Of a DNA stretch of 64,000 bases, positions 27,914 through 55,309 are shown piece after piece. The stretch lies in the NCBI GenBank assembly GCA_024742275.1, contig JANSYS010000006.1:1-64000 (forward strand), written 5' to 3'. The stretch is from Alphaproteobacteria bacterium (GTDB taxonomy: Bacteria; Pseudomonadota; Alphaproteobacteria; Thalassobaculales; Thalassobaculaceae). Position 1 is the first letter of the stretch. Each line of letters starts with the position of its first letter. Position numbers and translations under genes: made by a program. The notes under the pieces were generated by a model. That model was not told the DNA's origin, ran no database searches, and worked only from the letters and a program-made list of their open reading frames with translations.

Positions 27914-30280
27914 TCAACTTGCACGGATACGCTGAATGAACCCGACCGCTTCGTTCTCGAGCGCCTTCATCTCGGCCTCGAGCTTACCGCAAGTGCTCAG
28001 CACCTGGCTTGCGCTCTGACCGGTCGCACGGGATGTCTCGCTGACTTCGGCGATCTCGATGGTAACCTTCGATGTGCCGGAGGCGGCCTCTTGGCTGTTG
28101 CTGGCAATGCTCGCGGTCGTCATGGACTGTTCCTCGACCGCCGCCGCGATGGCGGCATTCATCTCGTCCAGACCGGCAACCGCCTGGGTGATGGTATCGA
28201 TGGCCTCGACGGCTTCACCGCTGGCGCCCTGCATCTGGCCGATCTGGTTGCGGATGTCCTCGGTTGCCTTCGCGGTTTGCGTGGCGAGGCTCTTCACTTC
28301 AGAGGCCACGACGGCGAAGCCTTTTCCGGCATCTCCGGCGCGTGCCGCCTCGATGGTGGCGTTCAGGGCCAATAGATTGGTCTGCTCGGCGATGTCCTGG
28401 ATCAGGGCGATCACGTCCCCGATCTTCTGAGCGGTTTCGGCCAGCGCCGCGATCCTTTCGTTGCCGATACCGGCCTGGGTGCTGGCGCCCCGTGCCATTT
28501 CCGCCGCCCGGGCAACCTGGCTGCCGATCTCGTCGGACGCCGCGGCCAACTGCTCGGCGGCATCCGAGACGGCCTTGACGTTCGCGTTCGACTGTTCGGA
28601 CGACGCCGCGACCGCGTCGGCGCGGGTCAGCGACGTATTCGACGAAGCGGCCATGGTCTCCGCCTGGGCGCGCACTTCGGCGACCTGCGCGGTCAGACCG
28701 GCGACCAACTTGCCGACCGACTCTTCGAAGCTGGCGGCAAGACTCTCCATCGCCTGCCGCTTCTCCGCTTCTGCGCGGGCCGCAACCTCCTGCTGCTCCC
28801 GTTCCAGGCTCTGCACACGAAGCGCGTTCTCCTTGAAAACCTGCACGCAGCGGGCGATGTCGGCGATCTCGTCCTTGCGCTTAACGCCCGGAATCTCGGT
28901 GTCCAGATCGTTGTCGGCCAGGCGTTCCATGGCGCCGGTGATGGCACGCAGGGGAAGGGTGATCCCGCGCCCGAGAACGAAAGCCAGAATGACGGCCAGC
29001 AATGCGGCGGCGCCGGTGCCGACCAAGATCAGCATGATCGCCATCGCGCGGTCAGCGGAGCGGGACTCCGCTGACGCCGCGACGCTCGCCTGGACCTGTT
29101 CCGCTACGGCGGTCGCGGATGCCGCCATCTCCTCCGCCGCTTTGGTCCGGGTGCGGAGGGCGGTCACCAATTCCTCGAACTGATTCTGTTGCGCGGCCAA
29201 CTTGTCAGTGAAGGCGTCCACCGCTTCCGCGTCCGACAACTGCTCGCGCAGCCTGCCGACGATGCCGTCCAGCGCGCCGAATGCAGCCGTCTGCGCCATG
29301 ACCGCATCGCCCTGGCCGCCATCGGCCACAACCTGGCGCGAGTTCCCGTCCAACTCCTTGACGGCCGTGACCAGGTCCGAGGCGGTGGCTGAGATTGCCG
29401 CCGCCGCTTCGGCTTCCGCGGTCGCCTTCTGCGCCGCAGCACTGGCATCGGAGTAGGCCTTGGCTTCCTTGCGTGCGATAGCGCCGGCGAAGGCGTTGAT
29501 CTTCCTTGAAACCGCACCCAACTGCTCGACGGCCGAGGTCGCCGCCCAACCCTGAGACACCACGACGACCATCGACTCGAACGTCTTTCGATATTCGCTC
29601 ACCGACTCCGCCAGGGTCGCGACAGCCTTCTCTTCGTCCGTGCCCTTGGTCGCTTTCTTCATGTTCAGCGAGGTGAGGTACATTTCCTTGATCGCCTCGC
29701 GGGCGCCGTTCGCATCCGCGTCGTCTTTGGTGCGCAGATACATCGCCTCGTCGCGCCGCGCCCGCAGGGTGGCAAAGATCAACGTGCGCGTCAGTTCTTC
29801 GACTTCAAGCTTGGCCTTCTGCTCGGCGATGGCGGCATCGCGGTCGGCATTGAGCGTCTTGCGCCGTTCGTCCTGCTGCGCGCGGATCGTGCTGGCGATC
29901 CGCTCCAGCTCGACATTGCTTGCTTCGATCTCGGAGATCAGTTGGCTCGCGTTGTCGCGGGCCGCGATCAAGGTCCCGAACTGCGCTTGATACTGCGCGA
30001 TCGACTCCGCGGCAGCGTCCTCGCCGAGGTCCCGCGCCAGTTGGTTGGCTTGATCCAGGCTGTTGGTGGTGGCGTCCCTGGCCGCTGGCGAACCGGATAT
30101 CTGATAGTCTCCGGCGGCGATCTGTGCTGCCCGGACACTGCGCTCGATCTCTGCGACCCTGTCGGCTTGGTCGACCTGGCCGGCATACCGGTCAAGCGCC
30201 AGCCAACCCGTGGTCCCAAGCACAAGCGTCAGTGTCACCACGCCGGCGAAACCCGCTCCAATCCGCAGCCCGATCCGCAT
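27914..30280 (-). CDS. methyl-accepting chemotaxis protein with a large periplasmic sensor
   Basis: This is a 788-residue receptor. TM1 (~8-28) and TM2 (~412-438) enclose a ~380-residue periplasmic region that is largely helical, longer than a four-helix bundle and compatible with a double bundle (HBM-like). HAMP follows (~440-491, [17 protein letters not shown]), then the signalling hairpin with the tip [20 protein letters not shown] (residues 630-649). There is no C-terminal NWETF-type CheR tether. It is divergent from a secreted Cache-domain protein; the 239-base AT-rich gap serves both. The ligand is unknown. Confidence 0.93.
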
Positions 30281-51024: not shown

Positions 51025-53361
51025 TCACGCGGCGATGACGGCGCGCAGGGACCGCGTCGAGCGTTCGATCTCCTCGGCCACCTGTCGCAACTCGTCAGCC
51101 AGCTTGACGTTCTGGTCGGCGGATGCGGCGAGCGTGTTGAGCGATTGTCCGACTTCGGTGATGTCCGCGTTGGTCGTCTCGGCGCGGCTTACGGCCTCCT
51201 CGGCTTTTGTGGCCAGGATGTTGGCGGAGTCGGTGTTGGCCCGCGCCGCGGCTTCGGACGCCTGTGCGTCGCCCAGAATGCCGTTCGCCGATTGGGAGCA
51301 TCCGAGGGCGGCGTCCGTGATCATCGACACGGCGGTCTCGACCTGATCCATGACAGATCCGATACGGGTCATCGCATCGCTGGCACCCGCCGTCCCCGAC
51401 GAGATGGCGGCCGCCGCTTCGCCGATCTGGGCTGTCGCCTGTCCGGTCCGCTGGGCGAGCGCCTTGACTTCCGTGGCGACGACCGCGAACCCCTTGCCCG
51501 CCTCGCCGGCTCGAGCCGCCTCTATGGTCGCGTTCAACGCGAGAAGATTGGTTTGCTCGGCGATTTCCGCGACGAGATTGGCGAATTCCTCGATCCGCGA
51601 CGCCATCGTGGTAAGCTCGAGCACCCGTTCCGTCGCTTCGCGTGTCTGAGTCGCCGCGCTTGATATAGACCCTCTAGCCTCGTCCGCGCTCGAGCGGATG
51701 TTGTCGACGGAGGCGTTGATCGAGCCTGCGTTGTCGCTGACCGAGCGGAGTTGCGCGGCAAGTGACTGGGCCCGATCGACCGCGCCCGTGCTCTCCGACC
51801 CAACATGGCGTAGTTCGTCGGACATGCCCGAAACGGCTGTCGCCACGCCGGACATGCTGGCGCGCGCACTGCCAATCCGGTCGGCGGCTCCATGAGCTCC
51901 CGCGGCAAGACGCCGGGCGACCTCGACGACCATTTCGGTGTGTCCGGCCAGGTGGCGACCTTCCTGCGAGATCGAGTCGATGACCTTCGACATGCGATGG
52001 CGCAGGGCATTGACCATGGCCGCGATCGCCGCGTTCTCGTCGCCCGGCGGCACCGAGATTTCGGAACGGAAATCGCCGGTCTCGAGCATCTGGGCGAGTG
52101 CCTTCTGGACCACAGCGGTGCCGAGCGTGACACCGTGTTCCTCGTTGAGGCCGGCCTCTTCCGTCTCGACACTGACGCGCATCCAACCGTAGACCGTGCC
52201 GTTTCGCTCGCGCTGGACCAGTCGATGCACCGCGTAGAGCAGCGCCAGAGAGGTTCCGAATACGAAGCCGAAGACGACCCCGACCCCCATTGCCTGGACC
52301 ATGAACTGGCCCCAAATGCTGCCGGCGGGAAGGCTGTCGACCGGGGAGAAGAAGGCGAGCGCCACCGTTCCAAACGCGCCGGCAAAGCCGTGGACGGGAA
52401 CGGCGCCGACCACGTCGTCGACCCGCATTTTTTCGAGCAGTTCGGTGGAGAGATAGACCACCAGGCCGCCGCCGGCGCCGATGGCGATGGCGCCGTGCAG
52501 GTCGACCAGATTGCAGCCCGCGGTAATCGCGACAAGACCGCCCAGAACGCCGTTCACCGACCGCTCGGGGCGCAGCAGGCCTTGGTCGACGGCTGCGCCG
52601 ATGATCATCAGGACAGCGCCACCGGCGGCGCCGGCCATGATCGTGTTCGCGATGATCGGGGCAAAGGCCGCGGGATCGGCCGCCGTCGTCGACCCGCCGT
52701 TGAAGCCGATCCAGCCGATCCAAAGAAGGATCGCGCCGAGGACGGACAGCGACGCGTTGTTCGCCGGGAAAATCCGCCGCTCGCCGTTCGGACCGAACTT
52801 GCCGATGCGGGGGCCGACCACGATGGCGGCCGCGAGCGCGATCCAGGCTCCGGTGCTGTGCACGACGGTGGATCCCGCGAAGTCCAGGAACCCGAGATCC
52901 GCCAGCCAGGCCGGGTTGTCGGGAATCAACAGGTTGCCCCATGCCCAGTGGCCGACGACTGGATATATAATGCCGCAAATCAGCGTGATGAGGAAATAGG
53001 CGGCGATCCGCGTCCGTTCGGCGATCGCGCCGGAAACGATCGTGGCGGCGGTTCCCGCGAACACGAGCTGGAAGACGAAAAAGGTGTACACCCAGGCATC
53101 CGCCTGCTCGAACGCGAAGAGCGTCGTACCGAAGGGGCCGATGGATTCGCCGAACATCAGCGCGAAACCGATCGTGTAGAACACCATCGCGGCGATGATG
53201 AAATCGATCAGGTTTTTCATCGCGACGTTGATGGCCGACGACGTCCGCGACGAGCCGGCCTCCAGCATCAGGAAGCCGGCCTGCATCAGAAAGACCAGTG
53301 CTGCTGCGACGATTGTCCAGACGTGGTTGGCGGCGTCCTGCGCGAGGAATTCTGTACCCAT
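51025..53361 (-). CDS. ammonium transporter fused to a methyl-accepting chemotaxis signalling domain
   Basis: The 778-residue protein has two modules. Residues 1-~395 are an Amt/Rh channel: about 11 membrane helices, the signature-like Asp160 ([10 protein letters not shown]), twin pore histidines His168 and His324 ([10 protein letters not shown]), and WIGFNGGS. Residues ~440-778 are an MCP signalling domain with the perfect hairpin tip [20 protein letters not shown] (600-619) and [19 protein letters not shown] ~45-residue linker ([19 protein letters not shown]) replaces a HAMP. It should report ammonium at the channel to CheA. No glnK is next to it. Longer N-terminal reading overlies the upstream spacer. 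Confidence 0.93.
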
Positions 53362-53716: not shown

Positions 53717-55309
53717 ATGCGTAAAACACTGCTGGCCGCCGCTACGGCCGCCGCGTTCCTCGGCGCTTTTGGCGCCTCCACGGCGGACGCGAAGACGTTC
53801 AAGTGGGCGTTCCAGGGCGATGCCCAGTCGCTTGATCCGTATTCCCTGAACGAGACCTTTACCCTCGGCTTTCTTGGAAACATCTACGAAGGCCTGATTC
53901 GACGCGGTCCGGAGCTGGACATCCAGCCGGGTCTTGCGGAGCGCTGGGAGATCGTCGAGCCGACCCGCTGGCGCTTCTACCTGCGCGAAGGCGTGAAGTT
54001 CCACAACGGCAACGATTTCAACGCCGATGATGTTCTGTTCTCAGCCGCCCGCGTCGCCGCGGACGGGTCCGACCTGAAAACCCGCCTCGCCGGCGTGGTC
54101 GACATTGTCAAGGTCGACGACTACACCGTCGACTTCGTCACCGAGGCGCCGAACCCGATCCTCCACTACGAGTGGGCGACCTGGTACATGATGGACAAGG
54201 AGTGGTCCGAGGCGAACGGTGCCCAAGCCCCGACCGACGTGACCGGCGGTACGGAAAACTTCGCCACCCGGAACGCCAACGGTACCGGCCCGTTCATGAT
54301 CCAGTCGCGCGAGACGGACGTGAAGACGGTCATGGTTCCGTATGACGGCTGGTGGGATGCGGCGAACAAGCAGCACAATCTGACCGAGGTGGTCTTCACC
54401 CCGATCGGGTCCGCTGCGACCCGTGTCGCCGCCCTGCTGTCGGGCGAGATCGACATGATGTACCCGGTGCCCGTGCAGGACATGGACCGGATCAACAGCG
54501 GTTCCGACACCGAGGTGCTGGCTGGCCCGGAGCTGCGGACGATCTTCCTCGGCATGGACCAGGAGCGCGATGAGCTTCTGTACTCCAACATCAAGGGCAA
54601 GAACCCCTTCAAGGACATTCGCGTCCGCGAGGCGTTCTACCGTGCGATCGACGTCGATCTGATCAAGGCGAAGGTGATGCGCGGCCTGTCGACCCCGTCG
54701 GCCATCATGATCTCGCCGTTCCTGTTCGCCTATGCCGACGAGTTCACCCGTCTGGAGACGGATATCGACCAGGCGAAGGCGCTCATGGCCGATGCGGGCT
54801 ATGCGGACGGCTTCGAAGTCACCATGGACTGCCCGAACAACCGCTACGTCAACGACGAGGCGATCTGTCAGGCGGTCGTGGCGATGCTGGCCCGGATCAA
54901 CGTGAAGGTGAACCTGCTGGCTCAGCCGAAGGCACAGTACTTCGCCAAGGTTCTGGCGCCGAAGCGCGACACCAGCTTCTACCTGCTGGGCTGGACCCCG
55001 GGTTCCTTCGATAGCTGGAACGTGATGTTCAACCTGATCAGCACCCCGGATGCGGATAGCGGCCGCGGCAAGTTCAACCTCGGGGGCTACTCTAACGCCG
55101 AGTTCGACGCGTTGACCGAAAAGGTCCTGTCGGAAACCGATGCTGACAAGCGCAACGCGATGATCCGCGATGCCTACACCATCCTGCACAACGAGCGCGG
55201 CTACATTCCGCTCCATCAGCAGGGTCTGGCCTGGGGCAAGCGCGGCAACATTTCGCTCGCTCAGCGCGCCGACAACCAGTTCATGCTGTACTACGTCACC
55301 GTGAACTGA
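53717..55309 (+). CDS. Opp/Dpp-type ABC transporter solute-binding protein, copy 1
   Basis: The 530-residue SBP_5 protein has a signal peptide (residues ~1-25, ending ADA), then [44 protein letters not shown] and YIPLHQQG. It delivers a peptide-like or other organic ligand to the two permeases downstream. It is clearly a paralogue of the protein at 59623 (shared [14 protein letters not shown] and TRVAALLS). A hairpin after it can reduce read-through so that the binding protein is made in excess. Confidence 0.92.

Follow-up and report, generated by a model that had tools for sequence, protein, structure and literature searches.

A Putative Ammonium Chemoreceptor Formed by Fusion of a Sensor-Type Amt Domain to an MCP Signalling Hairpin in Alphaproteobacteria

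Introduction

Can the fold of an ammonium channel serve as the input domain of a chemoreceptor? The question is raised by a gene in a 64,000-nucleotide stretch of DNA (the window; positions 1–64,000 of contig JANSYS010000006.1, GenBank assembly GCA_024742275.1) from an alphaproteobacterium of the Thalassobaculaceae, in which an Amt domain is joined to an MCP signalling hairpin. Sensor-type Amt proteins with kinase and cyclase outputs are already established; the available text of PMC5764959 describes Ks-Amt5 (PDB 6eu6), from Kuenenia, as a histidine kinase that senses ammonium. According to the available text of PMC12918730, it is a matter of debate whether Amt proteins have a role in sensing external ammonium that is separate from transport. 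In the open-access literature, outside which most subscription journals fall, we found no description of an Amt-MCP.

Based on sequence comparison, we propose with a probability of about 0.7 that the window protein serves as a chemoreceptor for ammonium: an Amt domain of the sensor type stands in for the periplasmic ligand-binding domain and would signal through a HAMP-like unit to CheA.

Gene and Domain Architecture

The gene occupies a single frame with no internal stop. All of the following features lie on the reverse strand, and residue numbers refer to the translation.

51025–53361, reverse: Amt-(HAMP-like)-MCP fusion gene, 778 codons plus stop in one frame
52138–53322, reverse: Amt domain, residues 14–408, ammonium channel fold (Pfam PF00909, Ammonium_transp, E = 3.5e-96)
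53200–53283, reverse: residues 27–54, with Q27, E34, N50, and D53 of the putative intramembrane NH4+ site (alignment to Ks-Amt5)
53032–53043, reverse: residues 107–110, with T107 and S110 of the putative NH4+ site (alignment to Ks-Amt5)
52882–52884, reverse: Asp160 (translation and alignment)
52858–52860, reverse: His168, first pore histidine
52390–52392, reverse: His324, second pore histidine
51964–52131, reverse: HAMP-like linker, residues 411–466 (predicted helix 415–428, connector, and helix from 442; weak profile match; HAMP in the family)
51028–51963, reverse: MCP signalling hairpin, residues 467–778 (Pfam PF00015; solved MCPs)
51472–51564, reverse: hairpin tip, residues 600–630, the CheA/CheW-contacting region (gap-free alignment to 4jpb_B and 3ur1_C)
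51184–51213, reverse: near-match to the methylation consensus, residues 717–726 (second E at tip +102)

The Pfam MCPsignal match covered residues 559–688 (E = 2e-25), and the pore motif was complete, with Asp160, both histidines, the Phe gate (F101/F220), and the selectivity filter (W141/S224). The initial annotation had described a complete Amt joined in one frame to an MCP hairpin, with Asp160, His168, and His324 all kept and a canonical tip. This description was borne out by the Pfam matches of both domains within a single open reading frame, by the translation, and by the gap-free alignment of the tip to the receptor fragments 4jpb and 3ur1. Among the NCBIfam matches at E ≤ 1e-10, no family model naming the fusion was found.

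The mechanically called reading frame opens further upstream, at 53883, and the extra stretch overlaps a divergent gene; we judge the ATG at 53361, which agrees with the first Amt helix, to be the start. The GC content at third positions was 0.76–0.87 along the frame. The gene lies between a nupC-like gene and a divergent gene for an ABC substrate-binding-like protein. A search for a nitrogen-type promoter upstream of the gene, scored with the commonly known sigma-54 consensus, gave a best site with four mismatches, which was equalled by 490 of 500 shuffled sequences and thus gives no evidence of such a promoter.

Ammonium Site and Pore

In a sequence search of the PDB, the window Amt domain matched the sensor Amts 6eu6, 8qj3, and 8qpf with E values of about 1e-87, and transporters were matched far more weakly (Af-Amt1, 7e-44; E. 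coli AmtB, about 1e-25). A structure search agreed, returning 6eu6 (titled “Sensor Amt Protein”) and 8qj3/8qj4 (“Receptor Sd-Amt1”) as the best folds. Ks-Amt5 holds two ammonium ions at an intramembrane site formed by Q24, E31, N47, D50, T51, T109, and T112 (available text of PMC5764959). The alignment placed these at Q27, E34, N50, D53, F54, T107, and S110 of the window protein, where six of the seven positions are identical or conservative, S110 standing for T112, and F54 differs from T51. The 24 Amt-MCP rows compared, two of which are 98% identical to each other, showed invariant E34, N50, D53, T107, and S110, with Q27 in 22 rows and K in the other two; the residue at the T51 position varied, with T in three rows. 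Among 20 unfused Amts, taken from the genome of the window and from relatives of its class, the D, Q, and T of the site occurred once each, all in a single row (L134), and the E, N, and S occurred in 9, 9, and 8 rows, respectively.

An Amt-PII fusion also has the putative site, and the unfused L134 has most of it. Its presence is no proof of sensing, because it is common to sensor Amts by descent and extends to these two cases. L134 (genome G042) carries the site Q, E, N, D, and T with A for S, groups with the Amt-PII protein, and is a possible unfused sensor. On a plasmid of Enterococcus raffinosus (L009, 2980–4755), we observed an Amt fused to a P-II domain; like that of the window protein, its sensory-type site has F in place of T51 and S in place of T112.

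It had been suggested in the initial annotation that ammonium binding or conduction itself drives CheA. Ammonium sensing coupled to CheA is still the simplest reading; the part of conduction became doubtful, given the Ks-Amt5-type site and four relatives that lack the pore histidines. The window Amt could nevertheless act as a transceptor that conducts, with the transport cycle rather than static binding driving the MCP, so that the cell would sense flux. The intact Asp160, histidines, Phe gate, and filter of the window protein agree with such a role, as does the fate of the pore plug of Ks-Amt5 (F27/Y30/F34), which is a trait of Ks-Amt5 rather than of the sensor Amt group: it corresponds to F30, L33, and S37 here, so that two of the three bulky residues are not kept. 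With its pore complete and the plug mostly absent, the window protein may still conduct. Against this stand four Amt-MCPs (L050, L051, L055, and L060) that have lost both pore histidines (S or C at position 168 and N at 324) and the filter serine (L for S224), yet retain the MCP and the acidic site. The four form one clade with support of 100/100, which is the most unexpected part of the family; the pore histidines are kept in all 20 unfused Amts and in all 26 kinase and cyclase rows. Moreover, the genome already carries an AmtB adjoining a PII gene for uptake. The clade weakens conduction as a required signal, and we consider flux sensing unlikely. The pattern of site and histidines agrees with a receptor under selection for the site rather than for conduction.

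The four histidine-free proteins come from alphaproteobacterial MAGs, and two of them (L051 and L060) have Lys in place of the site Gln; the amine of this Lys might mimic ammonium.

Linker between the Amt Domain and the Hairpin

The initial annotation held that the linker has no HAMP and that the signal must pass through a short helix. Pfam HAMP was found in 15 of 18 Amt-MCPs at E ≤ 0.05 (best, 1.9e-8), each time directly after the Amt domain, although the curated cut-off was passed by four of the 18; two further proteins beyond the 18 also have a Pfam HAMP match. The window protein gave no Pfam HAMP match, nor did L050 and L055. An HMM built from nine Amt linkers matched many ordinary MCPs of the phylum with E values of about 1e-9 to 1e-11 (at most 14 candidates scored per genome), and the matched stretches coincided with Pfam HAMP in all eight tested out of 21. 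A model of these 21 ordinary HAMPs, which is partly circular with the Amt-linker HMM that picked them and for which Pfam is the independent check, gave 54 bits for L050 and 52 bits for L055. The same model matched residues 427–466 of the window protein weakly (10.6 bits, E = 0.0075; best of 200 shuffles, 0.42), and the kinase rows L136, L158, and L161 scored no better than shuffles.

The predicted structure of the window protein (mean pLDDT 75.7; 57–77 in this region) has a helix at 415–428, a connector, and a long helix from 442, which is the layout of a HAMP. A helix-connector-helix of HAMP size thus lies between the membrane domain and the output in the model, although the curated profile cut-off was not reached by the window protein. 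We call this unit HAMP-like because it has no Pfam match, though 15 of 18 family members do; the linker is predicted to be a diverged, HAMP-like unit missed by Pfam. The absence of HAMP is therefore rejected for the family on the evidence of Pfam and the linker HMMs, and is weakened for the window protein by the weak profile match and the modelled fold.

MCP Hairpin and Chemotaxis Pathway

Both Pfam and the alignment to 4jpb and 3ur1, which we take to be CheA/CheW complexes, assign the window protein an MCP signalling domain with a CheA/CheW-type tip. In the PDB search, the hairpin spanned the same 261 residues as 2ch7, presumably of the 44-heptad class, and a shorter alignment differed by one residue. 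The arm from the tip to the end is 158 residues long, compared with 138 in 13 of the 26 further MCPs read from this genome, a single one of which has 157. The commonly known methylation consensus was absent in its strict form from the window protein and present in 22 of those 26 MCPs, where the sites lie near −73 and +67 from the tip. The near-match at residues 717–726 is one position short of the consensus and has its second E at +102, unlike the genome's other MCPs; +102 is presumably the distance of Tsr E493 from its own tip. A strict match was found in one of the 18 Amt-MCPs, about 150 residues before the tip. Adaptation of the window receptor may be weak or may use other sites. The window contains another MCP signalling domain (28037–28456, reverse strand), which has the tip, arm length, and methylation consensus usual for the genome.

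The genome gave seven CheW-domain, 28 MCPsignal, and two FliG_C matches. One CheA (contig C46) has Hpt, dimer, ATPase, CheW, and receiver domains, and CheR, a CheY-like receiver, and CheW are also encoded. A second chemosensory cluster comprises a CheA-like protein of 1163 aa, CheB, and a double-CheW protein. The chemotaxis clusters retrieved lie on contigs other than that of the window. CheW-domain proteins were found in all 20 Amt-MCP genomes searched.

The existence of the second cluster raises the alternative that the output of the receptor goes to a non-flagellar chemosensory pathway, such as one that controls pili or biofilm, rather than to swimming; the length of the hairpin arm and the absence of the usual methylation consensus are in line with it. 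The tip, however, is essentially that of the ordinary MCPs of the genome, and it is not shared by L129, the MCP next to the second cluster, whose tip is different. We regard this alternative as doubtful.

Phylogeny and Comparison with Known Systems

The database search and phylogeny that the initial annotation had called for revealed other Amt-MCPs, which make up a small family. A carefully built tree of 68 Amt domains placed the fusions with kinase, cyclase, and MCP outputs to one side of a branch supported at 95/96, and the window Amt accordingly groups with the sensor type, apart from transporters. A 72-row tree agreed on this grouping (SH-aLRT 96). Before tree building, we removed duplicate rows, fragments, a row that contained a masked stretch, the short Amt-MCP L052, and 11 cyclase fusions, and four further long-branch rows were dropped from the 68-row tree. 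The window protein lay within a set of 22 rows, 20 MCP and 2 kinase (support 100/96), and the MCP label required four changes on the 68-row tree, against a mean of 19.4 after shuffling. The Amt-GGDEF fusions included were sister to the alphaproteobacterial Amt-MCP set.

In a quick tree of the hairpins, the window hairpin shared a group with 20 further hairpins of Amt-MCPs and with a long-branch row of its own genome (SH-aLRT 99, a moderate value given the long branches of the window and several other rows). The 25 other MCPs of the genome and five of 26 Amt-MCP hairpins (L012, L019, L020, L090, and L091) fell elsewhere. L012 belongs to the window's own Amt set, yet its hairpin is outside the window's hairpin group. 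Judged from these trees, Amt and MCP have stayed together in most of the set, but not always. Outputs have been exchanged between fusions, as seen in the L012 hairpin and by an Amt-MCP (L047) beside an Amt-kinase (L057) in one MAG.

The window protein shares with Ks-Amt5 the fold, the sensor-type Amt, and a C-terminal signalling module in the same chain. Ks-Amt5 has a kinase output, whereas the output here is an MCP hairpin, and two of its three pore-closing residues are not kept here. According to the available text of PMC5764959, Ks-Amt5 is without HAMP, whereas a HAMP-like unit separates the domains here. Sd-Amt1 of Shewanella denitrificans (8qj3, OFF-state; 8qj4, ON-state; 8qpf), at about 40% identity, is with 6eu6 the closest solved structure and its record is titled receptor, but it has a diguanylate cyclase output (its chain aligns through a GGDEF protein) instead of an MCP. 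The hairpin and the conserved CheA/CheW tip are shared with solved MCPs (4jpb, 3ur1, 2ch7, and E. coli Tsr 1qu7). Ordinary MCPs receive input through a two-helix anchor and a periplasmic domain, whereas the window protein has a channel domain and no strict methylation consensus. The same genome encodes an Amt-histidine kinase of 691 aa (L001, genome G000, contig C55), with a sensor Amt and a HAMP-like linker (HAMP E = 0.00047) but a kinase output. Kinases of this type were also observed in three genomes of the same genus, in which an Amt-MCP was not found.

Assimilatory AmtB is commonly linked to glnK. The AmtB of this genome has the Amt fold and pore residues of the window protein, but has no output domain, adjoins a P-II gene, and lacks the sensory Q, D, and T. 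The window protein has the pore residues of such a transporter; it is not a stand-alone channel, being fused to an MCP, and the PII-amtB pair lies elsewhere in the genome. That it is an ordinary ammonium transporter, whose MCP tail serves just to localise it to polar arrays or to regulate its transport, is very unlikely: the pore motif is intact and one annotated relative is named “ammonium transporter”, but the conserved sensory site, the grouping with kinase and cyclase fusions, and the loss of pore histidines in relatives all contradict it.

Distribution of Amt-MCPs

A protein search of plasmid records found three full-length relatives with 39–41% identity to the window protein: one of Phaeobacter inhibens P88, the single annotated relative encountered and labelled “ammonium transporter”, and two in unannotated Tritonibacter mobilis records. 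A pattern scan with one genome per species found 52 loci, the scan using two short motifs that favour close alphaproteobacterial linkers and thus undersample other outputs and phyla. By motif, 19 loci had Amt and MCP in one frame (two of them identical), two were pieces with MCP, three were Amt-kinases, 20 were of Amt-GGDEF type, four were Amts cut or with no recognised output, one was a fragment, and three were not Amt. The output class of most fusions was assigned from sequence motifs by script, and Pfam was applied to 18 Amt-MCPs and a few others. The initial annotation had called a fusion of Amt to the chemoreceptor class far less familiar than other fusions; the output is indeed unusual for an Amt, but with 19 of 52 loci the fusion is no one-off.

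By record title, carriers include Azospirillum halopraeferens, Roseospirillum parvum, Pelagibius marinus, Hwanghaeella grinnelliae, Tritonibacter, Epibacterium, and others. Outside the class, a genome of the same phylum (L020) carries an Amt-MCP, as do two MAGs of the Campylobacterota (L090 and L091). These two MAGs are titled Helicobacter cetorum, a title that looks doubtful, and have 25 and 16 CheW-domain matches and one Amt-MCP each. In A. halopraeferens DSM 3675, two scaffolds with an Amt-MCP (L061 and L062) are identical over at least 10,234 bases, the result either of a recent duplication or of duplication in the assembly. Two Rhodobacteraceae records (L065 and L070) have an Amt-HAMP frame that stops early or is broken up, possibly decayed Amt-MCPs. 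The 20 Amt-GGDEF fusions (L069 and L071–L089) come from Stappia, Roseibium/Labrenzia, Mesorhizobium, Rhodomicrobium, and others, and the script also saw an EAL-type motif.

A scan of the Alphaproteobacteria detected an Amt-MCP in at least five of 385 genomes, that of the window included (E ≤ 1e-12; at most eight candidates scored per genome). Among 61 genomes, consisting of this one and 60 relatives, the fusion was found in this genome only, the query being the diverged window linker, with which distant kin could be missed (at most 56 candidates scored per genome). In 30 relatives searched for Amt domains, the long Amt frames retrieved had kinase motifs or no recognised output, and none had an MCP motif; 29 loci were read, of which one gave no protein and two, read partially or in a wrong frame, did not enter the trees. 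The distribution of Amt-MCPs is sparse.

The frameshift or assembly error that the initial annotation named as a possible refutation is ruled out as the origin of the fusion, since independent records of Phaeobacter, Tritonibacter, Azospirillum, Roseospirillum, Pelagibius, and others carry it at full length and separate trees place the Amt half and the MCP half of the window gene each among Amt-MCPs.

Proposed Mechanism and Implications

If the window protein is an ammonium chemoreceptor, NH4+ would enter the vestibule and bind at the acidic intramembrane site (Q27, E34, N50, D53, T107, and S110). Binding would shift the C-terminal region of the Amt domain, and the shift would pass through the HAMP-like unit and the MCP hairpin to CheA. 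The output of CheA would then bias swimming with respect to ammonium, in either direction.

MCPs work as trimers of dimers. Amt proteins are trimers (available text of PMC5764959), and we share the view of the initial annotation that the mismatch of Amt trimers and MCP dimers is a real structural question. As a suggestion, two Amt trimers would supply six hairpins, which is one MCP trimer of dimers. A bolder reading, which we offer tentatively and with the odds somewhat against it, is that Amt is here a pure ligand-binding domain for chemotaxis, in which the site senses and conduction is dispensable, and dead in one clade. The Amt trimer would be matched to the MCP trimer of dimers, either by two trimers giving six hairpins or by dimers bridging trimers into a lattice, and this would be a new array geometry.

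The Amt-MCP family sets a concrete structural problem, namely how trimers drive dimers. It also offers a natural experiment, since relatives have lost the pore histidines with the sensory site intact, and its output is a very well understood signalling machine that can be followed through CheA activity or swimming. For some bacteria, the channel fold itself may thus be the means of navigating by ammonium.
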